A stretch of DNA of 64,000 nt from Elusimicrobia bacterium HGW-Elusimicrobia-3 (GCA_002840355.1 PHAL01000009.1:1-64000), one strand, 5' to 3'; positions 16,781 through 40,499 are shown, counted from the stretch's first letter. Numbers and translations: made by a program. Notes: a model not told the origin generated them from the sequence alone.

Positions 16781-17509
16781 ATGACGAAAACAATGAAGAT
16801 GGCAGCGGCCTTCGCCGCGGCGGGGGCCCTGGCGGCTTTCGCGCAGCCCGCCTGCAGCGCGCCCCGCGTGGCCGCGGTGGCGGTATTCATAACGGGCGAC
16901 GTGCAGGTGAAGCGCACCGGCGGGTCGGCCTTCGCCGAACTGAAGGTCAACGACATGCTGTACGCGGGCGACAACATCAAGACCGCGGCCTCCAGCCGCG
17001 CCGGGCTGGTAACCAAGGCCGGCGCCGAGGTGCGCCTTAACGAGAACTCCAGTTTCGAGATCTCGTCCCAGGGCAAGCTGCGCGACATGCTGCACCTGTC
17101 CGTGGGCCAGCTCTGGACCCGGATGCTGCACAAGATGGCCAAGATCAACGTGCGCACCCCGTCGGCCGTCTGCGCCGTGCGCGGCACCGAGGCCGACATC
17201 GAGCAGCGCAGCCTGCTGACCGTGAAGGTTTACGAGGGCCACGTGGACGTGCAGAACTCGCTGGGCAAGCAGTCCCTGCGGGCCGGCCAGATGACCACCG
17301 TGACCGGCGCCAACGCCGCGCCCGAAGCCGCCAAGAAGATGTCCGGCAAGGACGCCGGCAAGTGGCAGGAAGAGATCAAGGTGAGCGACTACAAGAAATT
17401 CATCAGCCTGCTCGAGGAGAGCGCGGCCGGCGGCAAGGACCTCAAGACGTCCGTCAAGATGCCCGACGGCTCGGTGAAGCAGATAGAAGGTTCGCTGAAG
17501 AAGAAGTAA
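16781..17509 (+). CDS. FecR-domain periplasmic protein
   Basis: ITGDVQVKRTGG...AGDNIKTAASSRAGLVTKAGAEVRLNENSSFEI...INVRTPSAVCAVRGTEA. Confidence 0.85.
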   Translation: MTKTMKMAAAFAAAGALAAFAQPACSAPRVAAVAVFITGDVQVKRTGGSAFAELKVNDMLYAGDNIKTAASSRAGLVTKAGAEVRLNENSSFEISSQGKLRDMLHLSVGQLWTRMLHKMAKINVRTPSAVCAVRGTEADIEQRSLLTVKVYEGHVDVQNSLGKQSLRAGQMTTVTGANAAPEAAKKMSGKDAGKWQEEIKVSDYKKFISLLEESAAGGKDLKTSVKMPDGSVKQIEGSLKKK

Positions 17510-17538
17510 GCCGGCCAACCCCGGCGGAGGAACTGTTT

Positions 17539-18465: not shown

Positions 18466-18559
18466 CGGTACGCCAGGGTTGAAATAAGCGCGGAACCCCT
18501 CGACGGGCGCCGCGGATATTTGAACCTTTGCATTGCGTGATATTCACGGAGGCAGTCTT

Positions 18560-24500: not shown

Positions 24501-27500
24501 GCGGCGGAACAGTCTCCAAGGCCTATGGCCTCATCGTGGACGATATTTACACCGATTCGGGCGCCGGCGTCATAACCGACACCTACGGCATCTACATAGG
24601 CAATCAGACTTCCGCTTTCGGCGGTATGCAGACTAACTTGCCTTATGCCATTTACTCGCAGGACCCCGGCGCCAGGACCTATCTTGCCGGCAGCCTGGGC
24701 CTTGGCGGCGTGGACCCTGTCGCGCGCCTGGACCTTATGGCCGCGGCCTCCGACCCCGACACGTTCGGGCAGATCTGGCGCAATTCAGCCGGTGACATAG
24801 TCTCCTCCATGAGCGCCACCGGCGTGATGATGGCCAGCAGGTTCGTGGGCGACGGTTCCGGCCTGGCCAACCTTTCCGGCGTGCAGAAGACCGGCGACAC
24901 GATGACCGGCGCGCTCACGATCTCCGGCTCGTCGCTCACTATACGCCCCGCCGCAGGCGCCGCGTATTCGCTGTACATCAGTTCGGCTGACGGCGTCGCG
25001 CAGGCGCTGACGGTCAGGCCCGGCGGCGAGCTGTATACCGCCGGCAGGGTAGGCATAGGTTCGGCCGCTCCGACTGAGGCGCTGGATATTTCTGGCAGGG
25101 TGCTGATCTCCACCAGGGCCGGCGGCAACCCCTCTACCGACGGCCTCTTTTCTGAGGGCAGCAGCGGCATGATGTTCCAGAGCGGCGGCGGAACCTATAT
25201 GAATGTGGCCTACGGTGGAAATTATGTCAGTATCGGCCCCAGCGCCAATGTTCAGGCCACTACCAATTCCCCGCGCCTGCAGGTGACAGGCAGTATGAGC
25301 GTGGGTTCGACCTACAACTCCTCCAAACCCCCGGCCAACAGCCTGGTGGTGCAGGGCCGCCTGGGCGCAGGCACCTCCGCGCCCGACGCGGCGCTGAGCG
25401 TGGTGCAGTCCGACGTGGCCGGTTCCTCCTACACCGTGCACATAGGCACTTCGGCTTCCGCCTACCACCTGGTGGTTACCACCGGCGGCTGGGTGGGCCT
25501 CAACACGATGAATCCGCATGCTCCGCTGCACCTTACCGCGGCCACGAAGGACGAGGGTATAGTAGTGGAGCACAACAGCTCCACCTCCGAGGGGTCCTTC
25601 CTGGCGCTGCTCAAGGCGCGCGGCACGGCGAGCTCACAGAACCTGGTCCAGGACGGCGACAACCTGGGCGTGCTGGCTTTCGGCGGCTATAATGCCGCTC
25701 CCAACGACCCGTTCCCGACGGCGGCGGCGATAGTGGGCCGCGTGGACGGCATCCCCAGTGTGTCCCCCGCGCTCGATATGCCCGGCCGGCTGGAGTTCAT
25801 GACCGCCGCGGACGGTACCACCGATATGATCACCCGCATGGTCATCCGTAACGACGGCGGAGTCGGTATTTCCACCGGCACCCCCCAGGCCATGTTGGAC
25901 ATACGCTCAACTTCTACTTTGGCGCAGATCTGGCGCGACGGTGGCGGCGTGGCGCGCGCCACGATGACCGCGGACGGTACGCTTTATGCGAATATCGACG
26001 GACTCGCCGACAAAGTCTCCAAGGCGGGGGACTTCATGTTCGGCCCGCTGTCCATTGCCGTGGCCAATATCGATACCGAACCTTTCGGCCTGATTACTAC
26101 CGGCCTTAATATCTCCACTTCCGGCGCGCTGCAGACGCAGGGCTTCGGCGATGGTACGGCCACGCCGGGCAGCCGCGGCATGGGCGCGGTGGACCTGCAG
26201 ACGAACCGCAGCAACTCCGCGCAGGTAGCATCCGGGGATTATTCCGTCATCGCGGGCGGCTGGGATAATACGGCCAACGGCACGCATTCGGCCGTGGTCG
26301 GAGGCTGGTGGAACGTGGCGAACAGCGCCGAGTCCTTCATCGGCGGCGGCGGCTATAACACGGCCGACGGCGCTTACGGCGTTATTGCCGGCGGCTACGA
26401 GAACAAGATGGACTCCGGCGCCGACATGGCCTTTATCGGCGGCGGAAAAATGAACAGGGTAACGCCTTTCGGCCTGTACTCCGCCGTGGTGGGCGGCAGC
26501 AGCAATACCGTGGCCGGAGAGGGCAGCTTCATCGGCGGCGGTGCGCCGAACAGTATCGGCAATCCCGGCAACAAGGTGTATTCCAATTTCGCGTCCATAG
26601 TGGGCGGGAGTTCGAATACTATCGACTCGGCCGCGTACTGGGGCTTTATCGGGGGCGGCAGCAACAACCAGGTCTCCGACGAGAGTTCGGTGATCGGCGG
26701 CGGCGACAGCAACCTGGCTTCAGGTTATGATTCCTCGGTGCTGGGCGGTCTGGTAAATAAGGCCACAGGGGACGGTACCGCTATCGGCGGCGGCGCCCTC
26801 AATATGGCCAGCGGCAATTACTCCACCGTGCCTGGCGGTTACCAGAATACGGCCAAGGGCGCCTATTCTTTCGCGGCCGGATTCAAGTCCAGTTCCACCG
26901 CGGCGGGCACGTTCACCTGGGCCGACAGCCAGGGCGTGGAGATGCTGAACGGCGTGCAGGACCAGGTGCGCTTCAAGGCCCGCGGCGGCTTCCTGGTGAG
27001 CGGCTCTACCAATACGGCCGACCCCGGCTTCTTCGTAAGCGGGGACGGCTCGGTCACGATGGGGAACGGCCTTTTCATAAGCCGCAGCGGAGCTGTTCAG
27101 ACTACGGGCCCCGGGACCGGCACCTTCCCTCCCGACGCCCGGGACGCGACCGCCGTGGATCTTCAGAACAAGAGGGAAAGCACTATCCAGGTCGCTTCTG
27201 GTTATCTCGCTGTCATCTCCGGAGGTGGAAGCAACAGGGCCAGCGGGAATCGCTCCTCTGTAGCCGGGGGATATAATAACCTGGCAACCAGCGAGTCGGC
27301 TGTTATATCAGGGGGATACGTAAACAGGGCCGGCGGCATGTATTCGGTCGTGCCAGGCGGCGCGTATAATGAGGCTACCTCCGACTATTCTTTCGCGGCC
27401 GGCCGCAGCGCCCAGTCAGCGGGTATTGGCGCTTTCACCTGGGCTGACAGCCGGGGCGTGCCCCTGTTCAACAATGTCCAGGACAGGGTCTGGTTCAAGG

Positions 27501-28018
27501 CTAGCGGCGGGTTCCTGGTCAGCGGCTCCACCAACACGGCTGACCCGGGCTTGTTTGTGTCGGGGGCCGGACGGGTCGCTGTCGGAGCCACTTCTCTTCC
27601 GGTCAACCCCGCCAGGCTGCAAGTGAACGGCGACCTAGGGCTTGGTAACGGGAACCTGACCGGGAACGCACCGGTGGTTATATGGCTGCAGGCTAACAAC
27701 TTGTTGTTGGCTGGTGACGCGGTAGTCGCAGCCGGCAATAACCAGGCTGACAAGTTTGCTGCGGCCTCCAATACCGCGGTTATCGGAGTAGCGGTGGAGA
27801 CTATTAACGGTCTCGATATCGGGCGGATAGCTGTTTCCGGAGTCGCGGCGGTAAATTGTGTTGCCGGGACCGCGGGGCAGCATGCCGTTACCAATGGCGT
27901 CACCGCCGGAGCTGTAGACGGGACGCCAACCCCTGCGTCCGGGGCCAGCCTCGGGGTCTTCCTGGAGAATTGCGGCAACTCCTTTGCCGGCAAAGCTTTT
28001 GTACTGCTTGGGCGGTAA
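18560..28018 (+). CDS. Giant (~3150 aa) repetitive secreted surface/tail-fibre-like protein
   Basis: Signal peptide MKKLILAIAIFLGASPLWA at 18560; MTYQGRLKES N-domain; many GDGSGLxGV, AQIWRDxDGV, VSGGxxNTA, GVGVGxxA and NTFLGxxAG repeats. Confidence 0.85.
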   Translation: MKKLILAIAIFLGASPLWAELMTYQGRLKESDIPVSANRVLLFEFCDAETAGTCYTTPSGYQSFAVQNGLFKSTFAVPTSDLSQGQWFLQVSVGPDIPGVQILTPRERLTAVPYSVFASSAAYAAGALLKAGDTMTGQLTVSGSTFTVIGPDGDANGGLMWVSTSVVTPALFVSTTGRVGLGTSAPGRSLHIVNNSGQVALLVEGRDATATSIYVESKSGGKPAHGYVRGGTLKAMTSVDSSNRFQIEVPTEPRLTITPAGLTGIGTETPDYQLHVSSAAGEAGTIMAVSTGTSNLFWVAGDGAHATRFYGDGSGLSGVTGATDGTKVLKAGDTMTGPLQILSDDLLNDTSDFITTGIVISTGGAIRTTGVGHGMVAGNARGLGAVDLQTVRTTSDQVAVGDYSTVSGGIYNKANEYGTSVGGGYQNLANTYYATVGGGFANTAQGHTSVVSGGGNNAANGQMSSVSGGSNNTASGDYSLVAGGESNLAFGTHAAAGGGKLNRANGLYSTVPGGYNNTAEGNYSFAAGAMSSSTAQGAFTWQDSGGSTINLINGVTDRTVFKSRGGFLVTGSTNTSMSGTLDRGVIMTGNGLLGVAINAPQAALDVVSTGTASTVYSQIWRDGDGVVRASVTATGVFYGDGSGLTGVTGATGTDPNALPLAGGIMQGAIDMDGNYLAGVSTITMLNGSIAIVPAGTGGTNVGYGISIGSNAYSNSDSGIGIGYGAYLNSYYSVGLGAFASENGSNAVGIGAFASRNYNNGVGVGGSAAENFQYGTGLGFNAANNDNYGLGVGAYAQNNDNYAVGVGAYSQYNAGYGAALGAYSYASSSATALGAQAKANAELSMALGYGTVNDSTGTASFGSYGVSAPYYQVTGSTVLALGGGLASNTLKVGPMAGAVSEGQFNVFVGSAAGKANSSGIHNVLVGHGAGSANITGTGNTFIGSAAGSANVTGLQNIVIGYNQQTSASNSASELNIGGLLFGQLGSKTVGISTRTPQAALDIVSTGKTVNDYAQIWRDSDGVTRASVTATGVFYGDGSGLANVTASGAVQKIGDVMTGPLTINSPTLAQANDFVTTGIVISTGGAIQTTGLGHGTAAGNARGMGAVDLQTYRAVNTEVAGGYMATLSGGYSNTASGYIATVSGGQGNTASGAWYPTVSGGYYNTASGNYAAVSGGQSNTASYSFATVSGGYYNTASNTRATVSGGESNTANGSRATVSGGVGNTASGSFATVSGGSTNTALGQFSWAGGNRSSSTADGAFTWSDSKGYEIRNITVDRTLFKNEGGFMVAGSTVAGSAILPGNQGMLDIISTGTTVNQYAQVWRDSDGVAKASVTATGVYYGDGSGLTGVTSAGAVQKAGDTMQGTLDMDGNFLAGVSTITMLSGSIAIVPPGTAGSNAGYGISIGSFSFNNHTSGVGLGHTAATNNNYGVGVGYGASSNYSSGVGVGNAASNNHNSGVGVGNSAFENRDYGVGVGYSANYNFNYGVGLGANANNNDGYAVGVGAYSANNKGYGAALGAYSYASSSATALGAQAKANAELSMALGYGTINDSTGTASFGNYAVHTSTAVNAAYYQINGSTVLAKLQGLGSLGVGISAGAKNAGAYNTFLGINSGSNNTTGGNNTFLGSYSGLNNAGGLDNTFVGSQAGQFNTSGRENSFLGVNAGDRNTTGKSNSYFGYKAGDYNAVGAGNTVMGSEAAYGVFNNSFSSSTIIGYRAGYGITTGSDNIFFGWQAGYDVTTGTGNIVIGYDEDTSAPGANNELNIGGLLYGDLEGREIYVGRGAAVSTITPYGFFGSGAGLTGVTASDPTKLPLAGGNMSGQLTTASTITVQGNAFSVGASTFVVNAGRVGINWISPEAALQVSGGAKFLSSAGTSYILTAGSSARPDMFFVSSGGIVGAGDFTDVAVDTFAVVSLAPVLKGGADSAVGLHVYARTDKADTIAATGPDQALAGGNFEAAAGGDDSVTLLAGLRAQVRREAAGAGGGTVSKAYGLIVDDIYTDSGAGVITDTYGIYIGNQTSAFGGMQTNLPYAIYSQDPGARTYLAGSLGLGGVDPVARLDLMAAASDPDTFGQIWRNSAGDIVSSMSATGVMMASRFVGDGSGLANLSGVQKTGDTMTGALTISGSSLTIRPAAGAAYSLYISSADGVAQALTVRPGGELYTAGRVGIGSAAPTEALDISGRVLISTRAGGNPSTDGLFSEGSSGMMFQSGGGTYMNVAYGGNYVSIGPSANVQATTNSPRLQVTGSMSVGSTYNSSKPPANSLVVQGRLGAGTSAPDAALSVVQSDVAGSSYTVHIGTSASAYHLVVTTGGWVGLNTMNPHAPLHLTAATKDEGIVVEHNSSTSEGSFLALLKARGTASSQNLVQDGDNLGVLAFGGYNAAPNDPFPTAAAIVGRVDGIPSVSPALDMPGRLEFMTAADGTTDMITRMVIRNDGGVGISTGTPQAMLDIRSTSTLAQIWRDGGGVARATMTADGTLYANIDGLADKVSKAGDFMFGPLSIAVANIDTEPFGLITTGLNISTSGALQTQGFGDGTATPGSRGMGAVDLQTNRSNSAQVASGDYSVIAGGWDNTANGTHSAVVGGWWNVANSAESFIGGGGYNTADGAYGVIAGGYENKMDSGADMAFIGGGKMNRVTPFGLYSAVVGGSSNTVAGEGSFIGGGAPNSIGNPGNKVYSNFASIVGGSSNTIDSAAYWGFIGGGSNNQVSDESSVIGGGDSNLASGYDSSVLGGLVNKATGDGTAIGGGALNMASGNYSTVPGGYQNTAKGAYSFAAGFKSSSTAAGTFTWADSQGVEMLNGVQDQVRFKARGGFLVSGSTNTADPGFFVSGDGSVTMGNGLFISRSGAVQTTGPGTGTFPPDARDATAVDLQNKRESTIQVASGYLAVISGGGSNRASGNRSSVAGGYNNLATSESAVISGGYVNRAGGMYSVVPGGAYNEATSDYSFAAGRSAQSAGIGAFTWADSRGVPLFNNVQDRVWFKASGGFLVSGSTNTADPGLFVSGAGRVAVGATSLPVNPARLQVNGDLGLGNGNLTGNAPVVIWLQANNLLLAGDAVVAAGNNQADKFAAASNTAVIGVAVETINGLDIGRIAVSGVAAVNCVAGTAGQHAVTNGVTAGAVDGTPTPASGASLGVFLENCGNSFAGKAFVLLGR
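19762..20175 (+). repeat. Degenerate VSGG-x-x-N-T-A coding repeat array 1
   Basis: STVSGGIYNKANEYGTSVGGGYQNLANTYYATVGGGFANTAQG... Confidence 0.75.
20652..21060 (+). repeat. GVGVG-type coding repeat array 1 (~42-bp period)
   Basis: GIGIGYGAYLNSYYSVGLGAFASENGSNAVGIGAFASRNYNNGVGVGG... Confidence 0.75.
21259..21440 (+). repeat. Short N-x-F-x-G-x-x-A-G coding repeat array
   Basis: FNVFVGSAAGKANSSGIHNVLVGHGAGSANITGTGNTFIGSAAGSANVTG. Confidence 0.7.
21911..22300 (+). repeat. VSGG array 2, well-conserved ~45-bp tandem coding repeats
   Basis: acggtctccggcggctattacaacacggccagc... units repeat at 45 bp (TVSGGYYNTASNTRA, TVSGGESNTANGSRA, TVSGGVGNTASGSFA). Confidence 0.9.
22755..23100 (+). repeat. GVGVG array 2, ~42-bp tandem coding repeats
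   Basis: tccggcgtgggcgtggggaatgctgccagcaataaccataac-type 42-bp units. Confidence 0.85.
23346..23660 (+). repeat. NTFLG array, ~51-bp coding repeats
   Basis: GLDNTFVGSQAGQFNTS / GRENSFLGVNAGDRNTT / GKSNSYFGYKAGDYNAV, 17 aa each. Confidence 0.85.
26230..26900 (+). repeat. VSGG/IGGG coding repeat array 3
   Basis: SVIAGGWDNTANGTHSAVVGGWWNVANSAESFIGGGGYNTADG... Confidence 0.75.
27200..27440 (+). repeat. VSGG coding repeat array 4
   Basis: AVISGGGSNRASGNRSSVAGGYNNLATSESAVISGGYVNRAGG. Confidence 0.75.
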
Positions 28019-28066: not shown

Positions 28067-31000
28067 ATGACGTTAAACTTGATAGCGGCCATGCTGTTGC
28101 TCCTGGCGCAAGCAGCCGCCGCGCAGACTAAAAGCGCCGGGATCATTACCGTGCTCGGTGACGCGGCGGACTACTCGTCCGCCAGCGCGGGGCAGTCGCA
28201 TGCCGACGGCAAGGTGGTGCAGGGGGGGCTGGCCGGCGCGGCCCACGGCTCGCAGGAGTTCCATAATATCAGCAGCGACATCGTGCTTGAATCGGGCTTC
28301 TACTCGAAGCTTGTTTCCTCGGCCGCCGCCCTGGACTATGCGGCGCAAGGTGTAAGCAGTTATACGCTGGCTTGGACGGAGCAGGGCTGGCCTTATCCCG
28401 CCAATCCCGCCGGTACCACCTACGACCTCTTCGTCTCCACCTGGGCCGAGGCCGATCCGTACATGGTCACCTATTCTACCGACGAGCACGGCTACCCGGT
28501 GGAAAGCCTGGCCCCTAATACCAGCTACTACAATTTCCTGCTGGCCAACTACATGGAGGGTGACTACTCCTCTTACGCCTCCTCAACCGCGGTTACGCTG
28601 GCGGCGGTTCCTTCCACCGGGGTTTTCACCCTGACGGACGCCGGCCACAGCACGCTGGGGCTGGCTTTCGCTTACTCCGGCAACCCGCCGCCGCAGCTCG
28701 GCGGCTGGGAAACCGCCGCGCCGCCGGACACTTTGCCCGCCCCGCGTTCGGGAGCCGCCGCGGTGGTTTACGGTTCCCACGTTTACTTGAGCGGCGGCTT
28801 CGACGGCGTTTACTATTCCAGCGCCGTTTTCAGGGCCGAGATCGCCGCCGACGGTTCTCTCGGCGCATGGCTCACGGCGGGGTACATGCCTGAAGGGCTG
28901 TACGGCCACCAGGCGGTGGCCGCGCGCGGCCGCCTGTACATCCTGGGCGGTTCCGTTTCAGGCGAGGCGCGCAACGAGGTCTGGTCCGCCGACCTCTCCT
29001 CGGCCGGGGCGATCGGCGCCTGGCAGACCGAGATCGCTTTCAACGACGCGGTCTATTTTCACGCGGCCGCGCTGGCCGGCAGCCGCATCTATGTCGCCGG
29101 CGGCTACAAATCCGGCACAGGCGTGCTGGGTACATTAAATTATGCCGATATCGGACCCGACGGCACCTTGTCCGCCTGGCAGGGTGCGGGAGGGGGCATG
29201 CCCTCGCCCCGCTACGGCCACTCGCTGACCGCCCTGGAGGGGCGCCTGCTGCTGGCCGGCGGCCGGGACGGGGCCGAGGCCAGGGCCGAGACCTGGATCT
29301 ACGACCCTGCCGGCGACAGCTGGACCCCTTACACCCCGCTGCCTTCGCCCCGCTATGGCCACGCGGCGGCGGCCGCGGATAACCGGCTCTATCTGCTCGG
29401 CGGCAACAACGGTTACGGCCCGCAGCGGCACGTGTTCCACAGCAATGTGCCGGCCTCCGGCACCGCGCCCTGGGAAGCCGGCCAGCCCGTTCCGGCCGAG
29501 CGCCAGTTCGCCGCCCCGGCCCTCACCGGCCCGCGGCTCTACCTCTTCGGAGGTTCGCCCGGTTCGGCGGCGGCGGATTCCGTCTATTCGGCGAGGGTGC
29601 TGGGCGCCGAGTACGAGGCGCAGGTGGCCCTGAACGCCGGCTTCACCGGCGCCAAGACTTCAGGCTGGTCCGCCGGCCCGTCGTTCGCCTTCACCGGGCT
29701 GCAGCCGGCCACGCAGTATTACTACCGCGCCCGGGCCCGCAACTGGGCCGGCGTGGCAACCGACTACTCCCAGAGCGGGTCCACCTTCACCTATGCCGCC
29801 GTGCCAGGTACCGCCGCCTGGACCAATGTCTGGGTGGATTCGGCAACCGTGAATTGGACGGCCAACGGCAACCCGGCCGGTTCCGATTATAGCCTGGTCT
29901 ACTCCTCTTACCCGGATTACTCCTACCCGCACAGCCTCAGTGTGGCCGGCGCGCTTTCGGTCGACCTCAGCGGCCTGGAGCAGAGCACCACCTATTACGC
30001 CCGGGTCCGCCTGCAGGACGGGGATTTCCTGTCGCGCTACGCCGACCTGCCGCCGGCGCGCACCAGCTTCGACCCGGCCCTCGACATCAGCAGTCCCACC
30101 ATAGATGATCAGCAGGGCGACATCCCCGGCTGGCGGTCCACCAACACCTTCCTCTGCGACGTGAACTTCGCCGATGTCGGCGCGGCCGGCCTGGACCGCA
30201 TAGAGCTGCGCGTCTCCACCCGGGCGGCGGACCCGAATAGTTTCGTCGGCGCCTGGACCGCGGCCATCACGGCCATCAACCAGGATTCCTACGCGGCCGA
30301 CTGGCCGCTGACGCAGCCGGTCTGGGAGACCATGCTGGACGGCGCTTCCAACTACGTTTCCGTCCGCGCCTATGACCGCTCCGGCAATTACAGCGAGCAG
30401 CTGGAGCTGTTCATGGTGCGCAAGGACACCACGCCTCCGGAGATAATCTCGGCGTACCTGGCCCCGCTGGCCTGGCAGATAGATTATCCCGGCGACGTCA
30501 CGGGCCTGGATTTCGGCGACCCGCTGTCGGGCCTGGCCCGGGTGCAGTATAGCGTAAGCGCCTCCAAGAACTTCGCGGACGGCGCTGTGATCCCGTGGAC
30601 GGACATCCCGGGGCTGACCCCCGGCGCCACCTGGTACCGGCCCACGCTGACCTACAGTTTCAACGCGCTGGCCAACGCCACCTCCAATTACTTCAGCTTC
30701 AGGGCTGTCGACGTGGCCGGCTCCACCCGCACGCTCGCCGACGCCTTCGGCATAGCCAAGAACGTCAGCGGCCCCATAGTGGGCATCTCCACGCCCACCG
30801 CCCTGTTCCTGTCCACGTTCACGCTGGTCTCCGGCGACACCGCCGAGACCAACGCCCACCAGGTGGAGGGGACCGAGGTGTCCATCCGCGACCTGACCAG
30901 CCTGCTCTACTATAACGCCGGAGCTTTCCTCTCCGGCTCGCAGGCCTGGCAGGACGCGCAGGATTTCCCCAGCAGCTATACCATCATCTTCCAGAACCTG

Positions 31001-32674
31001 CCGCTGCTCAGCGGGCGCCAGTACCAGGTGGTGGCCCGTTCTTCCGACGCTGCCGGGGACTACTCGCAGCTGCTGGCCACCCATACCTTTACTTTCGACG
31101 CGGCCGCCCCGGCCGCCGTGGTGCTGTACCCCGCCGACGGCTCCACCGCGGCCTCCGTGGCCGCCGTCAGCGGCACCGCCGCCGACCCGCAGTCCGGCAT
31201 AACCTCCGTGGACGCGGCGCTGAAGCGCCTCTCCGACGGTAAATGGTGGAAGAACTCCGTATCCGAATGGGACGCCGTGCCCGAGCCGCTGCAGGCCGGC
31301 ACCACGCCCTACTGGACCTGGACTTTCCAGCCTTACCTGCGCGACTCGCTGGCGCACGGCGCCTCCTACTATGTAACGGTGCGCGCCTCCGACCTGGCCG
31401 TGCCGGTAAATACCGGCGCTTTCCACGTTTCGGGCTCCACGTTCACCTACACCGACGCCACGCCGCCGCCGCCCACGGGCGGCCTGGCCGCCGCTCCCGG
31501 GGCTTTCAGCGGCGCCGTCAACCTCTCCTGGCCTTCCGCCGGCGACAACGCGGCCGGCGGCTACCTGCTGGAGGGCTCGTACAAGATAGCCTATTCCACC
31601 TATACGGGCGCCCCCGTGTCCACGGATACGGCCCAGGTGGCCATCGCCACCGCCGCCGTCACCGCCGGCACCACGCGCTACTGGACGCTGACCGGCCTGG
31701 ACCCGGCCGCCGTCTACTATTTCACGCTCTGGACCGCCGACGACGCGCTGAACTGGTCCTCGGTCTCCAACGAGGCCTCGGCCCTGAGCGGGGCCCCCGA
31801 CAGCGGCGCGCTGACCGGCAGCGTCACCGACGCCTCCGCCCAGCCGCTGACCGGCGTGCTGGTAGAGGCCCGCTCGCCCGCGGGGGCGCTGGAGGGCAGC
31901 GACTACACCGACGCTTTCGGCGCGTACTCCATCCCTGGAGTGGACTCGCTCTTCGTCACTGTCCGGGCGGTCTGGACCGCGCAGGACATAGAGAGCTCCG
32001 TTTCCAAGGAGAGCGTGCCCAACGGGTCCTCCGGCGTGAACTTCAGCCTGAGCGTCTCCTACCAGCTGGCCAGTATTCTCGGCACGATCCCGTCGAACTA
32101 CCTGCCGGCCTCTTCCGCGGCCAGGCCCGCCTCCGCGCGTTATACCACGCGCGAGACCCGGACTTCTTCCGGCGCGGAGCCCTTCGTGGAGCTGTTCAGC
32201 CGCGGCCGCCGCATAGGCGCGGCCTACACCGACGCCGCCGGCTCGTTCGAGATCCCGAACCTGCTGCCCGGCACCTACTCGCTGCGCGTCTTCAACGGCT
32301 CGGAGTTCAGCAGGCTGGAGACGGTCAAGCTGGGGCCCGGCGAGCGGCTGGTCTTCTCGCCGCAGTGGGACCTGCTCAACAAGGCCGGCGTCTTCGCCTA
32401 TCCCAACCCGGCCAGTACCGAGGTTCACTTCCACTTCTCGCCGTCCGCGGTCTCTTTCAGGGCCGAGGTACAGATCTTCGATATCTCCGGGCGCCTGGTG
32501 AGGACGCTCAGCGACCACGCGCCGGACCTGCCGCAGCTCGGCGGCAGGCGCCTGACCTGGGACCTGGCGCGCGACGGCGCGGCGCCGGGCGTGTATCTCT
32601 TCGTGCTGCGGGTTAAAGACGTCTCCACCGGCCGGGCGGAGAAGGTGGTAAAGAAGTTCGCGGTGGTGCGTTAG
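28067..32674 (+). CDS. Large Kelch-like/FN3/Ig surface protein with carboxypeptidase-regulatory-like and T9SS-A/FlgD-like C-terminal domain
   Basis: Signal peptide; Kelch-like GSHVYLSGGFDG..., RLYILGGS...; FN3 TTYYARVRLQDGD; C-terminal FAYPNPASTEVHFHF...QIFDISGRLVRTL...GVYLFVLRVKD...KFAVVR. Confidence 0.85.
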   Translation: MTLNLIAAMLLLLAQAAAAQTKSAGIITVLGDAADYSSASAGQSHADGKVVQGGLAGAAHGSQEFHNISSDIVLESGFYSKLVSSAAALDYAAQGVSSYTLAWTEQGWPYPANPAGTTYDLFVSTWAEADPYMVTYSTDEHGYPVESLAPNTSYYNFLLANYMEGDYSSYASSTAVTLAAVPSTGVFTLTDAGHSTLGLAFAYSGNPPPQLGGWETAAPPDTLPAPRSGAAAVVYGSHVYLSGGFDGVYYSSAVFRAEIAADGSLGAWLTAGYMPEGLYGHQAVAARGRLYILGGSVSGEARNEVWSADLSSAGAIGAWQTEIAFNDAVYFHAAALAGSRIYVAGGYKSGTGVLGTLNYADIGPDGTLSAWQGAGGGMPSPRYGHSLTALEGRLLLAGGRDGAEARAETWIYDPAGDSWTPYTPLPSPRYGHAAAAADNRLYLLGGNNGYGPQRHVFHSNVPASGTAPWEAGQPVPAERQFAAPALTGPRLYLFGGSPGSAAADSVYSARVLGAEYEAQVALNAGFTGAKTSGWSAGPSFAFTGLQPATQYYYRARARNWAGVATDYSQSGSTFTYAAVPGTAAWTNVWVDSATVNWTANGNPAGSDYSLVYSSYPDYSYPHSLSVAGALSVDLSGLEQSTTYYARVRLQDGDFLSRYADLPPARTSFDPALDISSPTIDDQQGDIPGWRSTNTFLCDVNFADVGAAGLDRIELRVSTRAADPNSFVGAWTAAITAINQDSYAADWPLTQPVWETMLDGASNYVSVRAYDRSGNYSEQLELFMVRKDTTPPEIISAYLAPLAWQIDYPGDVTGLDFGDPLSGLARVQYSVSASKNFADGAVIPWTDIPGLTPGATWYRPTLTYSFNALANATSNYFSFRAVDVAGSTRTLADAFGIAKNVSGPIVGISTPTALFLSTFTLVSGDTAETNAHQVEGTEVSIRDLTSLLYYNAGAFLSGSQAWQDAQDFPSSYTIIFQNLPLLSGRQYQVVARSSDAAGDYSQLLATHTFTFDAAAPAAVVLYPADGSTAASVAAVSGTAADPQSGITSVDAALKRLSDGKWWKNSVSEWDAVPEPLQAGTTPYWTWTFQPYLRDSLAHGASYYVTVRASDLAVPVNTGAFHVSGSTFTYTDATPPPPTGGLAAAPGAFSGAVNLSWPSAGDNAAGGYLLEGSYKIAYSTYTGAPVSTDTAQVAIATAAVTAGTTRYWTLTGLDPAAVYYFTLWTADDALNWSSVSNEASALSGAPDSGALTGSVTDASAQPLTGVLVEARSPAGALEGSDYTDAFGAYSIPGVDSLFVTVRAVWTAQDIESSVSKESVPNGSSGVNFSLSVSYQLASILGTIPSNYLPASSAARPASARYTTRETRTSSGAEPFVELFSRGRRIGAAYTDAAGSFEIPNLLPGTYSLRVFNGSEFSRLETVKLGPGERLVFSPQWDLLNKAGVFAYPNPASTEVHFHFSPSAVSFRAEVQIFDISGRLVRTLSDHAPDLPQLGGRRLTWDLARDGAAPGVYLFVLRVKDVSTGRAEKVVKKFAVVR

Positions 32675-32720: not shown

Positions 32721-34634
32721 ATGCGTAAACTTGCCGTACTCATACTTTTCTCTCTCGTTTGTCAGGCCCGGCCGCTGCTGGCGCAGGACGCCGCGAGCCT
32801 GCAGTTCACGGTGGCCGCGCCCGACCCGGTGATGGCCGGCGAGGAAGTGACCCTGCAGACGCTGGCCGTCAACAGCGGCGCCTCCGTGTGGGAGCGCGGC
32901 AGCTACTACTGGATCGGCGAGGTGTACGCCATAGAGGGGGAGGGCCGCCGCTTCCTTACCCAGACGGCCTCCGTGTCGCCGGCCGAGGACGTGGCCCCGG
33001 GCGCGGCGCAGGGCGTGCAGCTGCCGTTCCGCGTGCCCGACAACCTGGCCGGGCGGCGCCTGCTCTACCGCGTGTTCCTCATCAAGGACGGCCGCCGCAT
33101 CCTCGAGACGGATTTCAAGGGCTTCCAGGTCATAGAGAAGGAACTGCGCTACACGATCCCCGAGGATTTCAAGATCGGCGGCGACGTCTCCTTCACCTAC
33201 AAGAACAACAGCCGCGACGGCTGGGACCACCACCAGGGCATCACCTCGGCCAACCTCGTGGGCAAGATCCGGCAATCCTCCTTCCTGTTCAATACCTACG
33301 TGGTGCACACCTATCACCGGCCGATCACGCCCACGATCGTGCTGCTCAACTACTACGCCCCGTGGGGCACGCTTAGCATCGGCGATATCTCGCCCACCCT
33401 GACGCCGCTGTCGATGGACGGGCAGGGCATGCGCGGCGTCTCGTTCGAGCGGGCGCGGGGGAAATACTCGCTGCTGGCCCTGGTGGGCCGCATCGTGGCG
33501 CCCGAGGAGCCGGGCCCGAACAGCGGCGGCCGCTTCGCGCGCTACACCAGCGGCCTGAAGGCCGGCTGGCAGTTCCGGCCCAACCTCAAGGTCTCCGTGG
33601 ACGCGGTGATGAGCCGCGACGACATGCACTCCATCAACATCACCACGACGGCGCTGACCATAAAGCCGCAGCAGACCGTGGTCTACGGCCTCAACGCCGA
33701 GTGGAAGTTCCTCAAAGCGTTCTCGCTCAACAGCGACTACCAGATGAGCGCCTACAAGGCGGACATGGAGGCTTCGGAAGCGGCGCTGGGCGGCTCGGCC
33801 TGGAAGCAGGAGCTGAAATACCGCGCCGACCTGTTCACCGCGCGCGGCGCGCTGTCGCGCATAGACCCCAAGTTCTATTCCTTCGGCAGCCCGTCGGTGA
33901 TCTCGGACCGGCAGGTGGTGGACGCCGAACTGGGCCTTTTCCCGGCGGACTGGACCACCTTTACCATGGCCTACAACGCCTACACCGACAACCTGGACGC
34001 CGACCCGGCCAAGACCACCACGGACCAGGTCCAGACCACGCTGGGCAACATGCTGCGCATCCTGGGCAAGACGGTGGTGAACACCTCGGTCATGACCAAT
34101 ACCGCCAAGGCCCAGACCGAGGGCGTGCAGGACAACCAGACCACCACGCTCAACCTCTCGGTGACCCAGCCGCTGGGCCGGCATACGCTGAGCGCCGGGA
34201 TGCAGCAATCCTCTTTCAAGGACAACCTCGGGCTCTCCCACGACCTGGACAGCTCGCTGCTCTCGCTCAACGGCTCTTTCAAGATCAACCGGCGGCTGTC
34301 CCTGTCGACGGGCCTGGTGGGTTCCTCCACGAAGGACAAGGCGGATTCTTCCATCAGCAAGAACAGCAGCCTGACCGCCAGCCTCTCCTACGCCATCCCG
34401 CGCCGCGGCATGGCCGTGCAGTGCTGGGCCACGCTGGCCTCGGCCGAGAACGACTCGCCGCTTTCGCCGGCCGATAATAGTTCTGTCACGCTCAACGTGG
34501 AAACGGTCTGGCTGAAGAGCCAGAATTCCCGCTTCACTTTCGGCGTGGGCGGGGTCTCGCGCACGGACAACCTCAACCCGGCCGCCGACGAGACCGTGCT
34601 GAACATCATGACCAGGTACAATTACTCGTTCTGA
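32721..34634 (+). CDS. Predicted outer-membrane beta-barrel protein, unknown family
   Basis: Signal peptide; alternating amphipathic strands; terminal aromatic ...IMTRYNYSF. Confidence 0.7.
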   Translation: MRKLAVLILFSLVCQARPLLAQDAASLQFTVAAPDPVMAGEEVTLQTLAVNSGASVWERGSYYWIGEVYAIEGEGRRFLTQTASVSPAEDVAPGAAQGVQLPFRVPDNLAGRRLLYRVFLIKDGRRILETDFKGFQVIEKELRYTIPEDFKIGGDVSFTYKNNSRDGWDHHQGITSANLVGKIRQSSFLFNTYVVHTYHRPITPTIVLLNYYAPWGTLSIGDISPTLTPLSMDGQGMRGVSFERARGKYSLLALVGRIVAPEEPGPNSGGRFARYTSGLKAGWQFRPNLKVSVDAVMSRDDMHSINITTTALTIKPQQTVVYGLNAEWKFLKAFSLNSDYQMSAYKADMEASEAALGGSAWKQELKYRADLFTARGALSRIDPKFYSFGSPSVISDRQVVDAELGLFPADWTTFTMAYNAYTDNLDADPAKTTTDQVQTTLGNMLRILGKTVVNTSVMTNTAKAQTEGVQDNQTTTLNLSVTQPLGRHTLSAGMQQSSFKDNLGLSHDLDSSLLSLNGSFKINRRLSLSTGLVGSSTKDKADSSISKNSSLTASLSYAIPRRGMAVQCWATLASAENDSPLSPADNSSVTLNVETVWLKSQNSRFTFGVGGVSRTDNLNPAADETVLNIMTRYNYSF

Positions 34635-34652: not shown

Positions 34653-34683
34653 AAAAAAAGGGCCGCTGTCGGCCCTTTTTTTG
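34653..34683. terminator. Bidirectional Rho-independent terminator between barrel gene and motor operon
   Basis: aaaaaaagggccgctgtcggccctttttttg. Confidence 0.85.
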
Positions 34684-34701: not shown

Positions 34702-35628
34702 TCAGGAGCGGGCGCCGGCTTGCTTGCGGGCGCCTTTCCTGGTTTTGCGCGGCTCGGGCCGGGCGGCCTCGGGCAATGCTTCGTCCAGCGCCTTGAGGTA
34801 TTCCGGCAGCTGCTCGTCGCCGGGGGAGAGCTGCAGCGCGCGCTGCCACGAGCTCCGGGCCTGGCGGTAATCCTTGAGCTGCAGGTAGGCCGAGCCGGCC
34901 CTTTTGAGCGCGGTGACGTCGTCGGGCTCCAGGCGCAGCACGCCTTCGAGCTCCTTGACGGCCAGGTAGAACTTGGCGTCGTAGATGTGGTGCAGGGCCT
35001 TTTCCTTCTTGTGCTCCAGCACGGCGACGTTGCGCGGCTTGGTGTCGTTGAGCCGCAGCTGCGGCGCTTCGGTCTCGAGCGCGGCCACCAGGCGTGGAAA
35101 AGCTTTTTCCGCCGGCGCCAGCTCGGCGGCGTAGCGCAGCGCGTCGTAGGCGAAGGGCAGGTCCGCCTTCTCGCCCAGCCAGGCGCTGATGCCGTCCGCC
35201 GCGGCGCCCCAGGCCCTGGAGGCCGACGGGCGGCGGGGGGCGATGGCCGAGATGTTGCGCAGCCGGCCCTGGGCCGCGACATAGTGCGGGTTCGTAGGGT
35301 CGGTAGCCAGCAGCTCTTCGAGCTTCTGCAGCGCGTCGGCGTACTGGGCGCGCTGCACCAGGCGCGCGAAGGCGCCCTTCAGGTCGGACGCGGAGCCGGC
35401 CATTTTGCGGCGGGCCTCTTCTATCATGTTCTTGGCGGTGGTCTGCTTGGGGTCGGCCCGCAGCACCATGTTCCACTGCTCGATGGCCTTGGAGTATTCC
35501 CCGGCCACGTAATGGGCGAAGGCCTTGTCGTAATAGGCCTTGAGGTCGAAATTTTCCGGGGCGGGCTGGGCCAGGGCGGCGAGCACGGAGAAGGCGGCGA
35601 GCGCCGCGGCTAGAAGAAGTGTTTTCAT
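34702..35628 (-). CDS. Secreted TPR-repeat protein (last gene of motor-like operon)
   Basis: Signal peptide MKTLLLAAALAAFSVLAALA; TPRs AFAHYVAGEYSKAIEQWNMVLRADP, AYLQLKDYRQARSSWQRALQLSP; 4-bp overlap with upstream MotB-like ORF. Confidence 0.85.
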   Translation of the reverse strand: MKTLLLAAALAAFSVLAALAQPAPENFDLKAYYDKAFAHYVAGEYSKAIEQWNMVLRADPKQTTAKNMIEEARRKMAGSASDLKGAFARLVQRAQYADALQKLEELLATDPTNPHYVAAQGRLRNISAIAPRRPSASRAWGAAADGISAWLGEKADLPFAYDALRYAAELAPAEKAFPRLVAALETEAPQLRLNDTKPRNVAVLEHKKEKALHHIYDAKFYLAVKELEGVLRLEPDDVTALKRAGSAYLQLKDYRQARSSWQRALQLSPGDEQLPEYLKALDEALPEAARPEPRKTRKGARKQAGARS

Positions 35629-36275
35629 GATTTGGTTTCCTGTGGCTGGGCCTGGCGCATGATGATCATCTCTATGCGCCGGTTCCTGGCGCGGTTCTCT
35701 TCGGTATCGTTCGGGGCGGCCGGGCGGAACTCCCCGTAGCCGAAAGCCGTCAGGCGCCCGGGGTTTACGCCCTTGGACGCGAGGTAATCGATAACGGAGA
35801 AAGCGCGCATGATGGACAGCTCCCTGTTGGAGGCGAACTTCCTGCCGAGCATGCGGGCAGAGTCCGTATGGCCCTCCACCACCACGCTGTTCTCCATCTT
35901 CAGCAGGCTGTCGGCTACCGGGTCCAGCACCGACATCGCGGTGCGCTTGAGCCTGGCCGAGCCGGAGTCGAAGAGCACCGGCGAAGCGAAGGTCAGCTTT
36001 ATGCGCGAGGTGCTGAACTCCAGTCCCAGGCTGCCCTCCTTGATCTGCTCCTTGAGGTCCTCTTCCACCTTGCTGGCCGCGTCCAGCTCCTTGATCTTCT
36101 GGTCGGCGTGCTTGATGCCCAGTTCTTTCTGCATCTGGGCCAGCGCCTTCTCGTATTCGGAGCCTTTCATGTTGTAGGCGAAGCCGTACAGGGCGAGGAA
36201 CAGGATGACCATGCAGGTCATCAGGTCCGCGTAAGGGACCATCCAGAGCTGGGAGTTGTCTTTCTTTTCGCTCAT
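35625..36275 (-). CDS. MotB/OmpA-family protein (paralog 2)
   Basis: N-terminal TM with Asp (YADLMTCMVILFLALYGF); OmpA-C VVEGHTDSAR...GYGEFRPAAPNDTEENRARNRRIE. Confidence 0.88.
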   Translation of the reverse strand: MSEKKDNSQLWMVPYADLMTCMVILFLALYGFAYNMKGSEYEKALAQMQKELGIKHADQKIKELDAASKVEEDLKEQIKEGSLGLEFSTSRIKLTFASPVLFDSGSARLKRTAMSVLDPVADSLLKMENSVVVEGHTDSARMLGRKFASNRELSIMRAFSVIDYLASKGVNPGRLTAFGYGEFRPAAPNDTEENRARNRRIEMIIMRQAQPQETKS

Positions 36276-36946
36276 TCTCGCGGTACTATGATCTCTATCC
36301 TGCGGTTTTTTGCGCGGCCTTCGGCCGTGTCGTTGGGGGCGGCCGGCCGGTGCTCGCCATAGGCCGCGGCTATCATGCGCTCCTGGGGGACCGAGTACCG
36401 GGCGGCCAGCAGGTCCACCACGGCGTTGGCGCGGGCCGCCGAAAGTTCCCAGTTGGTGCCGTAGTCGCCGGACTTGATGGGCACGGCGTCGGTGTGGCCT
36501 TCCACTATCACGTCGTTGGGCAGCGTGTTGAGCACCTCGGCCACCGGCCCCAGCACCTCGGCGGAAGAGCCGCCCAGCTCCGCCTTGCCCGAGCGGAAGA
36601 GCACCGGCGCGGCGATGTTGATCTTGATCTGTTTGGCGGTGATCTGCACCTCCGCCATGTCCTTCATGCCCGCCCTGAGCAGGTCCTCGGCCAGCTTGCG
36701 CGCCAGGTCCTCCTCCGTGAACTTCTTGACCACGTCCTCGGCCCGCTTTTCCTTCTGCTGCTGCGCGTTGTCCTTGTCGAAACCCTGCAGGAACTCCGTG
36801 TTGGAGGCCAGGTCGGGGCGGACGGTGAAGACGTAGAGGATCAGGAAGAACAGCATGAGGTTGGTCATGATATCCGCGAGCACGACGAGCCAGAGCGGGT
36901 TGTCGCCCACTTTATGGCTGGAATATCTTTCTATGAAGAACTTCAT
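36272..36946 (-). CDS. MotB/OmpA-family protein (paralog 1)
   Basis: N-terminal TM with Asp (LADIMTNLMLFFLILYVF); OmpA-C VEGHTDAVPIKSGDYGTNWELSAARA...RAKNRRIEIIVPRE. Confidence 0.9.
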   Translation of the reverse strand: MKFFIERYSSHKVGDNPLWLVVLADIMTNLMLFFLILYVFTVRPDLASNTEFLQGFDKDNAQQQKEKRAEDVVKKFTEEDLARKLAEDLLRAGMKDMAEVQITAKQIKINIAAPVLFRSGKAELGGSSAEVLGPVAEVLNTLPNDVIVEGHTDAVPIKSGDYGTNWELSAARANAVVDLLAARYSVPQERMIAAAYGEHRPAAPNDTAEGRAKNRRIEIIVPRE

Positions 36947-36976
36947 GCGGTGCGCCTCTGGAAACGGCCGCGGGCT

Positions 36977-37750
36977 TTACGCGCCCGTCTTGGCCTTGCG
37001 CCTCAGCGCCAGCGACAGGTAGCCCTCGAGCTTCTTGGAGACCAGCCAGGGCACGTCCCCGTCGTAGATGGAGAGCACGCCCTTGGCGATGATCTCCCGG
37101 CTGAGGATGTCCTCGTCGGAATAGTAGCCCAGCTTGCTGGCGATGGGCAGGAACAGGAAGTTGGCCGAGAAGATGCCGTAGAAGGAGGCGGTCATGGCGA
37201 TGGCCATCGACGAGCCCATCTTCGACGGATCCTGGATATTCCTGAGCACCTGCACGACGCCGATCAGGGTGCCGAGCAGGCCGAAGATGGGGGCGAACGT
37301 GCCGGCCGAATTGAAGATGTTGGTCTGCTGCTGGTGGCGCAGGCGGGTGGTGTTGATGTCGTTCTCCATGCGCTCGAGCAGGATGTGGCTGTCCACGCCG
37401 TCGAGCATCATCTGGCAGGCGTCGGTCAGGAACGGGTGCGGCGAGGTGCGCAGCTCGCCGGCGATGGCGTCTATGCCGCTCTTCTTGCCGATCTCGGCGT
37501 AGCGCACGATGGCGCGGATGAGTTCGTGTATGGGCGGGCGCTTGGGGGGAAAGATCACCATCTTCACCGAGGACTTCAGCCATTTAAGCGAGGCCCAGGG
37601 GTAGGCGATCATCACCGAGCCGGCCGTGCCGCCGAAGATCAGGATGATAGCCTCCCAGTTGAGCAGGAACTTGAGCATGCCGCCGGTGGAGAGCACGAAG
37701 ATTATGACGCCCAACCCGGTCAGGCCTCCAAGGAATGTCATCAGGTCCAT
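36977..37750 (-). CDS. MotA/TolQ/ExbB-family proton channel, MotA-like
   Basis: MotA-like length and motifs: LLNWEAIILIFGGTAGSVMIAYPW, AGTFAPIFGLLGTLIGVVQVL, MAIAMTASFYGIFSANFLFLPIA. Confidence 0.9.
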   Translation of the reverse strand: MDLMTFLGGLTGLGVIIFVLSTGGMLKFLLNWEAIILIFGGTAGSVMIAYPWASLKWLKSSVKMVIFPPKRPPIHELIRAIVRYAEIGKKSGIDAIAGELRTSPHPFLTDACQMMLDGVDSHILLERMENDINTTRLRHQQQTNIFNSAGTFAPIFGLLGTLIGVVQVLRNIQDPSKMGSSMAIAMTASFYGIFSANFLFLPIASKLGYYSDEDILSREIIAKGVLSIYDGDVPWLVSKKLEGYLSLALRRKAKTGA

Positions 37751-37767
37751 AATAGTTTACCTCGGTG

Positions 37768-39288
37768 TCAGGGCTTCGCGGGCGACGCCGGAGCAGGTCT
37801 GGGGGCGGCGGCGGGCGGGACCGGCGCGGGTTTTGCGCCGGGCGCGGGGGCGGCGCCGGCGGGCTTGGCCGCCGCCGGGGCGGCCGCGGGCCTCGGGGCC
37901 GGCGCGCCGCGGCCCTTGAGCGTTACCAGGCCCTCTTTGATCAATTGGCGCAGGGTCTCTACCACCTTGGCCCTGTCGCCCTTGTAGGCTTCGGCCGGCA
38001 GGTCGCGCGTGAGCTCCAGCTCCTGCTTGAAGCGCTCCTGCATGCCCCCGGCCAGCTTGGCCAGGAAGGCGGCGGCGTGCGGGGAACCCTTGAGGGCCGC
38101 CGCCAGCACGCGCACCGGCAGCCTGCGGGCCAGCGTCTGCGCGTGGGCCGCTTCCAGGTCCTGGATGTTGGCCAGGCGCACCACGGAGGCGTTGAGTTTC
38201 TTGCCCATCACGGGGTCGAGGCGGGCGAAGGCCGCCAGGGCCTTCTCCTGCACGGTTTCGTCCAGGCCGCTGATTATGCCTACGGCCTTGTCCTCGCCGC
38301 CCACCACGTAGTCCAGCGCCGCCTGGACCTCGGCTTCGAGCGAGCGGATGCGCGCCTCCGGCATCAGGGTCACCTTGGGCAGCTGGGCCAGCGCGTCGGC
38401 GCTCTTCGGGTAGAGGGTTTCGGCCAGCCTGGCCGCCACGTCGCCGGGGGCGTAGCTGAGCACTATGGTCAGGTCCTCGGTAGAGCGCGTCTTCATGATG
38501 AAGGCCAGGCTGGAGAGGTGACCGGCGGTCAGGAACCAGAACGGGGGTTTGCGGCCGTCGGCGGGCTGGGCCGCCTGGGCTTCCTGCGCGCCCTTGACCT
38601 GCTCGCGGGCTTCGGGCTCGTCGCGGCGTTCGCCGCGCTCGGCGCGCTCGCCGCCGGCGGCGGCCGCCGCAGCGTGGGCGCTGAAGGCCTCCACGAAGGC
38701 GCCGGCGCTGCGCGACAGCGGCGCGAGGAATTTGAAAACGGTCAGGAAGGCCAGGATGGCCACCACTACTATCCAGGTCAGGCTCCAGAGGTTGGGGGGG
38801 AGGAAAAGGTCGGCGAAGGTCAGCGGGCGGACCTTGCGGAAATCCATGCGCTCGAGTGTTATCAGGTCCTGCCTGTCGGCGGGCAGGCCCAGCAGGCCGC
38901 CGGCCAGCTTGCGGGCCAGCTGCGCGTCCTCCTCGGAAACGGACTTGTCGAGTATCAGGCTGGCCGAGATCTCCTTGACCATCGTGAGGCTGCTCGAGAG
39001 CGAGGCCTCTCCCATCTTTTCCTGGCGCGGGATGCCGGGCAGGATCTCCCTGGCCTTCTTGTCCTGTTCCTGCAGCTCGGCGGAGATCATCACTATGATG
39101 TCCTCCGTGCCCAGCGCCTCCGAGAGCACCATCCTCACGCGCTTCTCCAGCGAGTTCTCCAGCGCGAGCTTGGCCTCTATGGACGACCGGCTGGCGGTCT
39201 GGGCCGCGAGCGGCGCCGCGGACAGGATGAATTGTGAGGCCGCCAGGGCGGCAAACAGGAAATATTTAATCATTAAGGTCCCCCGCAT
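37768..39288 (-). CDS. FliF(C-terminal)-FliG-like fusion protein (alternative start 39273 gives a signal peptide)
   Basis: Signal peptide; FliF-C-like VKEISASLILDKSVSEEDAQLARKLAGGLLGLPADRQDLITLERMDF; TM WSLTWIVVVAILAFLTVFKFL; FliG-C-like DPVMGKKLNASVVRLANIQDLE...VLAAALKG...VVETLRQLIKEGLVTLKG. Confidence 0.8.
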   Translation of the reverse strand: MRGTLMIKYFLFAALAASQFILSAAPLAAQTASRSSIEAKLALENSLEKRVRMVLSEALGTEDIIVMISAELQEQDKKAREILPGIPRQEKMGEASLSSSLTMVKEISASLILDKSVSEEDAQLARKLAGGLLGLPADRQDLITLERMDFRKVRPLTFADLFLPPNLWSLTWIVVVAILAFLTVFKFLAPLSRSAGAFVEAFSAHAAAAAAGGERAERGERRDEPEAREQVKGAQEAQAAQPADGRKPPFWFLTAGHLSSLAFIMKTRSTEDLTIVLSYAPGDVAARLAETLYPKSADALAQLPKVTLMPEARIRSLEAEVQAALDYVVGGEDKAVGIISGLDETVQEKALAAFARLDPVMGKKLNASVVRLANIQDLEAAHAQTLARRLPVRVLAAALKGSPHAAAFLAKLAGGMQERFKQELELTRDLPAEAYKGDRAKVVETLRQLIKEGLVTLKGRGAPAPRPAAAPAAAKPAGAAPAPGAKPAPVPPAAAPRPAPASPAKP

Positions 39289-39461: not shown

Positions 39462-40499
39462 ATGAAAATGCGGGCATATTTCGTGAGCACTGCGGCGGCG
39501 GCCCTGATGGTCGTCCGCCTCGCCGCGCCCGCCGGGGCCGCGGGGGCCGGCACCACCGCCGCCAATTTCCTGAAGATCCCCGTGGCCGCGCTGCCTACCG
39601 GCATGGGCGAGGCCTACACGGCCATGGTCGGCCCCGACTCCATCCTCTACAACCCCGCCGGCCTTGGGCTGATGAGCTACTCCGCTTTTTCGGGCGCGCA
39701 TAACCAGTACCTTATCGGGGTGAAACAGGAGTACCTCGCCGTGGCCTGGCGCTTCCCGTTCGCCACCGTGGGAGCGGCGTTCTCCTCGCTGTCGAGCGGC
39801 GACATCGACGCCTACGACGAGAACGACATGCCCATAGGCAAGACCTCCACCGGCCACAGGCTGATGGTCCTGTCCGTGGCCCAGAGCTGGCCCCATTTTA
39901 AAAAGGACGCGGGGCGCCTGGACCCGATGCTGATCAACCCGCCCTGGAGCAGGATCGAGCCGGTCACCGACTACCGCCCCAAGGTCTACCGCCTCTCCGC
40001 CGGCGCCAGCGTTAAGAAGATAGACGAAAAACTCGCCGGGGAAACCTCGGGCACCTACGCTTTCGACGCCGGGCTGACGCTGGTGCTGCCGCGGCATTTC
40101 CAGGTGGGCGCTTCCGCCCTCAACCTGGGCGGGGGGCAGAAATTCGCGGAGGTCACCTCCGGCCTGCCAGCGTCGCTGCGCTTCGGCGTGGCCAAGGATT
40201 TCCGCACCGTCAACGACATCATGATCTTCACGGTGGCTTCCGACATGGTCAAATTTTCGGACCAGGACTACATTTCCCTCACCGGCCTCGAGATCGACGT
40301 GATGAAGACCTTCCAGCTGCGCCTGGGCTACCGCAACAACAAGGACGCCGGCTCCAAGCTGTCGGGCGGCTTCGGCATGAACTTCGACCGGATGGCGGAC
40401 AAGAACAGCCTGGTGCGGGGGGCCCGCGTGGACTACTCCTACGTGGACTACGGCAGCCTGGGCGCCACCCACCGCCTGGGAGTACAGTTCGTCTGGTAG
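39462..40499 (+). CDS. PorV/UPF0164-like outer-membrane protein (second copy)
   Basis: NFLKIPVAALPTGMGEAYTAMVGPDSILYNPAGLG; start moved to 39462 with signal peptide; ends LGVQFVW. Confidence 0.8.
   Translation: MKMRAYFVSTAAAALMVVRLAAPAGAAGAGTTAANFLKIPVAALPTGMGEAYTAMVGPDSILYNPAGLGLMSYSAFSGAHNQYLIGVKQEYLAVAWRFPFATVGAAFSSLSSGDIDAYDENDMPIGKTSTGHRLMVLSVAQSWPHFKKDAGRLDPMLINPPWSRIEPVTDYRPKVYRLSAGASVKKIDEKLAGETSGTYAFDAGLTLVLPRHFQVGASALNLGGGQKFAEVTSGLPASLRFGVAKDFRTVNDIMIFTVASDMVKFSDQDYISLTGLEIDVMKTFQLRLGYRNNKDAGSKLSGGFGMNFDRMADKNSLVRGARVDYSYVDYGSLGATHRLGVQFVW

Follow-up and report, generated by a model that had tools for sequence, protein, structure and literature searches.

What does a flagellar motor do in a bacterium that appears to have no flagellum? 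The question is raised by a 64,000-nucleotide stretch of DNA from Elusimicrobia bacterium HGW-Elusimicrobia-3 (GCA_002840355.1 PHAL01000009.1:1-64000; hereafter the window), in which five minus-strand open reading frames (ORFs) at 34702-39288, with junctions of 17, 30, -4, and -4 bp, encode a FliF-FliG fusion (FliFG), MotA, two MotB proteins, and a tetratricopeptide repeat (TPR) protein. We consider it probable that these products belong to an ion-driven rotor-stator derived from the flagellar motor, which has lost the flagellum and delivers torque to outer-membrane and surface proteins. The operon comprises the following features.

37768-39288, minus strand: FliF-FliG fusion, 506 aa (Pfam FliG_C, profile, AlphaFold, Foldseek)
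36977-37750, minus strand: MotA stator subunit, 257 aa (Pfam MotA_ExbB, 3.6e-23)
36272-36946, minus strand: MotB1, with a plug-type transmembrane (TM) segment carrying Asp and an OmpA peptidoglycan-binding domain (Pfam OmpA, 3.4e-19; MotB_plug, 2.5e-6)
35625-36275, minus strand: MotB2, a separate orthologous MotB with a TM Asp (Pfam OmpA, 1.7e-20; MotB_plug, 1.2e-8)
34702-35628, minus strand: secreted TPR protein, the last gene of the operon (Pfam TPR_2, 6.8e-12)
34653-34682, no strand assigned: terminator-like hairpin of 13 pairs flanked by A and T runs, between the convergent TPR and barrel genes

An earlier note, made from the sequence alone, had described five such genes, and the ORF positions bear out its gene set, coordinates, strand, and junctions. 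The strong terminator that it placed at the operon end corresponds to the 13-pair hairpin. Its assignments of MotA, of two MotB/OmpA proteins with the TM Asp, and of a secreted TPR protein agree with the Pfam matches above, and the Asp is present in both MotBs. The observation is confirmed, and it reaches further than first described.

The domain order of the rotor protein is a signal peptide, an RBM3-like domain (~30-150), a TM helix (~165-195), a linker, and the FliG middle and C domains (~250-459). Pfam FliG_C matched over its cut-off (3.4e-9), and a profile built from 16 FliFG orthologues matched the middle and C domains of T. maritima FliG (1lkv) at 6.1e-45. The same profile reached FliF fragments at 0.0031 (9yh6) and 0.05. 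The FliF_C match of the window protein lay below threshold (Pfam, 0.052); that of one of its paralogues in this genome passed, at 1.5e-9. The AlphaFold model displays an a-b-b-a-b fold, followed by the TM segment and then by FliG helices; Foldseek searches with this model returned FliG (2.5e-7, prob 1.00), the FliF RBM3 rings (prob 1.00, E about 0.03), and the FliF model 9a67 (5.4e-4). Because the orthologue profile, the FliF_C match of the paralogue, and the predicted structure agree, we read the protein as FliF RBM3-TM-FliG M/C, an identity that is well supported. A FliF-C/FliG-like fusion had been proposed in the earlier note, to be given up should it fail the FliF and FliG profiles; both were matched, FliF_C in this copy only below threshold.

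RBM1 and RBM2 are absent from the 506 aa, in which only the signal peptide precedes RBM3, and so is the FliG N domain. FliG-N holds the FliF tail, and its absence is to be expected if the covalent fusion takes over the joint between the two. In Salmonella, engineered covalent FliF-FliG fusions are reported to assemble rings (PMC6079021). The present protein shares their covalent link, but the fusion is natural and lacks RBM1/2 and FliG-N.

Contacts between MotA and FliG involving R90/D289 and E98/R281 have been described (PMC12505986). We compared the torque-helix positions K264, R281, D288, D289, and R297 (E. coli FliG numbering) in an alignment of the window-class loci. The residue equivalent to D289 is an invariant Glu, the K264 equivalent is mostly kept, that of R281 is mostly lost, and that of R297 is lost. 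On the MotA side, the R90 equivalent remains basic (Lys), while the E98 equivalent is mostly lost. Judged from these alignments, an R90/D289-type contact appears to be retained.

The window MotA matched the PDB structures of MotA (9.6e-53) and PomA (2e-38), and the prolines of TM3 and TM4 are conserved; the stator identity, too, is well supported. In the tree, window-class MotA forms a single phylum-wide clade (95/92). The second MotB raises the question of how many ion sites the stator uses. Both MotBs carry the ion-binding Asp in 23 of 35 pairs, exactly one does in 12 (L073, L075, L214, L217-L220, L229, L230, L233, L084, and L045), and the Asp is missing from both in none, although the pairs are related and the pattern is not statistically decisive. 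The lost Asp is replaced by N, C, G, or A, and the loss falls on MotB1 in some lineages and on MotB2 in others. Because 12 of the 35 pairs have lost exactly one Asp and none both, we favor a MotB1-MotB2 heterodimer, and the sequences suggest that natural stators may run on one Asp; a regulatory second MotB is a possible alternative. AglRQS also contains two MotB-like proteins, and a 2022 review lists their hetero- or homodimerization as an open question (PMC9389320). The one-Asp pairs offer a test of the number of ion sites needed by a 5:2 motor.

The source genome (2.88 Mb, 97% complete) was searched for the remainder of a flagellum. FlhA and FlhB gave no match genome-wide, and FliMN_C, the FliM/FliN C-domain, gave none at E up to 1. 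No rod/hook family was found in this genome or in six other FliG-bearing genomes, while the flagellated genome G166 gave six. The earlier statement that no flagellar genes lie nearby is correct and extends genome-wide to FlhA, FlhB, the FliM/N C-domain, and the rod; a full flagellar set elsewhere, which would have told against a stand-alone motor, did not appear among the families searched. The data agree with the minimal rotor plus stator, lacking export apparatus and rod, that had been suggested.

The window operon is one of several motor loci. Five FliG_C loci are present in the source genome, each within about 7 kb of MotA on the same contig, and four of them include a PorV-family barrel and a TPR part, as fused or separate genes. 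We found FliG_C in 152 of the 342 Elusimicrobiota genomes and FlhA in five; in free-living members of the phylum, the flagellum-less motor is present once or in several copies. The survey of gene order proposed in the earlier note found the five-gene order in families and classes that stand far apart (about 26-30% identity), well beyond chance. A second class, with a rotor of about 650 aa, has an operon that recurs across the phylum and encodes PorV-TPR, FliFG, the products of long ORFs, FlbD, MotA, and MotB, to which a lipoprotein is added in several loci. When the alignment of this rotor class was used as the query in a scan of the genome collection, the best 80 of 144 matches all bore Elusimicrobiota-type or plain 'bacterium' titles and included a complete chromosome (CP096137.1). 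In one locus of the source genome, FlbD, a flagellar-operon protein, lies beside motA. FlbD-class MotA clusters with flagellar stators in the tree. Because FlbD sits beside motA in this class, the sequences point to a flagellar ancestry of the motor loci. Strict co-variation between the losses of MotA E98 and FliG R281 was not borne out, as some FlbD-class members keep E98 with R281 lost.

If the motor drives no filament, its load might be sought among the neighboring genes, which encode the following outer-membrane and surface proteins.

32721-34634, plus strand: outer-membrane beta-barrel, 637 aa, with an Ig-like N domain and about 26 predicted strands (hidden Markov model (HMM), AlphaFold)
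39462-40496, plus strand: PorV/PorQ-family outer-membrane protein, divergent from the operon (NCBIfam PorV_fam, 97.4 bits; cut-off 90)
28067-32674, plus strand: giant secreted kelch/Fn3 protein with a C-terminal sorting domain (CTD) of the type IX secretion system (T9SS) type (Kelch, fn3; Por_Secre_tail, 24.8 bits; cut-off 23)
18533-28018, plus strand: giant ORF, 3161 aa, a possible surface protein, peripheral and of unsure membership (weak Pfam beta-roll match)

On the plus strand, a second PorV-family gene (17362-18465) precedes the 3161-aa ORF, after which come the genes for the kelch CTD protein and for the barrel.

An HMM search found a homologue of the barrel next to FliFG in 23 of the 31 other window-class loci, and in nine loci it lies directly upstream of the operon in the same orientation. 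The AlphaFold model of the barrel has a mean pLDDT of 83.8; its top Foldseek match is a 649-residue chain of the Mtr complex, with LptD-type barrels also among the matches. A PorV homologue is located upstream of FliFG in 11 of 32 window-class loci. The window TPR protein aligned over 186 columns (BLASTP, 1.4e-14) with the TPR half of a PorV-TPR fusion at a paralogous locus (C83), and in FlbD-containing loci such fusions adjoin the rotor gene. Other loci, too, have homologues of the kelch/Fn3 giant next to the operon, FecR proteins and giants with a CTD are repeatedly encoded near motor genes, and at L072 the giant-protein genes are co-directional with the motor in one run.

These parts suggest the following mechanism. 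A FliFG ring would be held in the inner membrane by RBM3 and the TM helix, with the FliG torque domains in the cytoplasm and the covalent link standing in for the contact between the FliF tail and FliG-N. Ion flow would turn the MotA pentamers, each holding a peptidoglycan-anchored pair of MotB1 and MotB2, and these would drive the FliG ring by way of the R90-D289-type contact. The RBM3 ring, with neither a rod nor an export gate inside it, would then rotate in the periplasm, where TPR domains would take up the torque and hand it on to the PorV-type and ~26-strand barrels. Giant surface proteins would thereby be moved, or actively exported or presented. The output that we favor is gliding-like surface motility or adhesin transport; gliding or surface-protein movement, as proposed in the earlier note, is plausible.

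Several observations weigh against this reading. The PorV and barrel genes of the window lie on the strand opposite the operon, one or the other is absent nearby in several loci, and PorV-family proteins are common outside a motor context; it is gene linkage that suggests contact of the TPR, PorV, and barrel proteins with the motor. Likewise, we infer that a ring forms and turns, how it is coupled to the outer membrane, and what its output is. The occurrence of FliG_C, in 151 of 174 genomes outside the families f2 and f21 and in one of 168 inside them, counts in favor of the motor reading but is phylogenetically clustered, so that the contrast does not represent many independent events. We take these families to be the gut-associated Elusimicrobiaceae and Endomicrobiaceae. 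Furthermore, all cultured Elusimicrobiota are reported to be non-motile, and the phylum has been described as flagella-less (PMC11257099). The latter statement needs refining because five genomes carry FlhA (G166, G110, G168, G187, and G117; loci L047-L050). G166 contains FlhA and rod genes, plus a 356-aa FliG.

The same neighbors could be read in another way: the motor might replace GldL/GldM and energize T9SS-like secretion or surface attachment, with giant CTD proteins leaving through a SprA-like translocon, PorV, and the 26-strand barrel, and with no cell movement. The Pfam SprA_N model gave no match in the source genome, and a reading in which the T9SS translocon is absent was discarded when a phylum-specific profile found a SprA-like protein there (C31:45854-51193, with one in-frame TAA). 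This SprA-family protein, of about 1800 aa and highly conserved, was found in 300 of the 342 Elusimicrobiota genomes (for example, L060 2508-8072, L177, and L178). PorV-family and CTD-bearing secreted proteins adjoin the motor loci, and GldM was not found above cut-off in the 12 genomes searched, all of which fits such a role. However, SprA is encoded elsewhere in the genome, and SprA-like proteins also occur in many f2 and f21 genomes, where FliG is almost absent; the translocon therefore does not require the motor. We regard the T9SS-like explanation as rather unlikely, and because SprA-like proteins are also found in FliG-less genomes and GldM was not found, we prefer, with moderate confidence, a surface-directed motor over a general T9SS energizer. 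We found no paper describing a T9SS-like translocon in Elusimicrobiota; a literature search combining the phylum with type IX secretion returned one paper, whose abstract concerns plant-litter enzymes.

Peptidoglycan-binding MotBs, outer-membrane partners, and the Mtr-complex and LptD-type barrels among the structural matches would also suit a Tol-like envelope-maintenance motor, in which the TPR, PorV, and barrel proteins serve outer-membrane tethering or lipid/lipopolysaccharide transport and the rotor is a scaffold. We consider this improbable: the motor is missing from the entire viable families f2 and f21, several paralogous sets coexist in a genome, and the kept FliG torque interface would be useless for a pure tether. 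Loss of the genes in some families, together with the export genes remaining in five genomes, might indicate functionless flagellar relics, but the ORFs are mostly intact, gene order and invariant residues have been kept over large divergence, window-class MotA is one phylum-wide clade, and the non-flagellar partners are stable, which makes decay a very improbable account. An anti-phage defense motor of the Zorya type is scarcely credible. The MotBs matched ZorB models in PADLOC, but only they rose above chance and MotA matched no PADLOC model; ZorC/ZorD-like neighbors were not seen by Pfam among the scanned genes, a rotor gene is present, and inheritance is clade-like and phylum-wide rather than in patchy islands.

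The surface-directed motor resembles several known systems in part. With the flagellar motor it shares the FliF RBM3 and second TM helix, FliG middle and C domains, MotA, peptidoglycan-binding MotB, and, in one class, FlbD beside motA. It differs in that FliF and FliG are fused, without FliG-N, RBM1, or RBM2, two MotBs are present, no export gate, FliM/N, or rod families were found, and the genes are linked to outer-membrane barrels, TPR proteins, and secreted giants. Long coiled-coil proteins (here in the FlbD class), a periplasmic TPR, and outer-membrane parts are presumably further points of likeness to AglRQS/Glt of Myxococcus, which has a MotA-like and two MotB-like subunits (PMC9389320) but differs from the present loci in their FliF-FliG rotor and OmpA-type MotBs. 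GldLM/T9SS of Bacteroidota likewise combines an ion motor with PorV-family barrels, CTD proteins, and a SprA-family translocon, whereas here the stator is MotAB, a rotor ring protein is present, and GldM was not found in the 12 genomes. Zorya ZorAB is a MotA/MotB-type 5:2 motor outside flagella; the present loci add a rotor, and ZorC/ZorD were not seen among scanned neighbors. The tested defining features of the flagellum, GldLM, and Zorya did not hold for these loci, and the torque parts are recognizably flagellar and would work like a flagellar motor.

The literature searched contained no description of this motor and nothing joining Elusimicrobia with FliG, MotA, and gliding. We propose tentatively, with slightly less than even confidence, that it represents an undescribed class of envelope-spanning rotary nanomachine, in which a flagellar rotor and stator are reused without secretion, several machines operate in parallel in a cell, stators are heterodimeric and capable of running on a single Asp, and outer-membrane adhesins are turned or exported for motility. 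Such a machine would be the converse of the injectisome, in which the motor was lost and the export apparatus retained. In a 2025 survey, 11% of the species regarded as non-motile had rotor proteins, and the question was raised what purpose half a motor serves (PMC12199754); the present loci give a concrete example, conserved and present in multiple copies, whose candidate partners make this question testable. If the proposal is true, the flagellar motor can be separated from its secretion system and rewired, which bears on flagellar evolution, and our data suggest that free-living Elusimicrobiota, held to be non-motile, may own a surface machine.

Other genes were noted around the motor loci. 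A plain ExbBD-TonB set (C11, L046) was set aside as unrelated. Next to the FlbD-class rotor gene at L080, L081, L082, L092, and L093 are ORFs of about 1500-2100 aa that look like coiled coil on inspection. CheY-like response regulators and/or histidine kinases were seen by eye beside motor genes at L043, L045, L076, and L087, and are possible candidates for a switch or brake.

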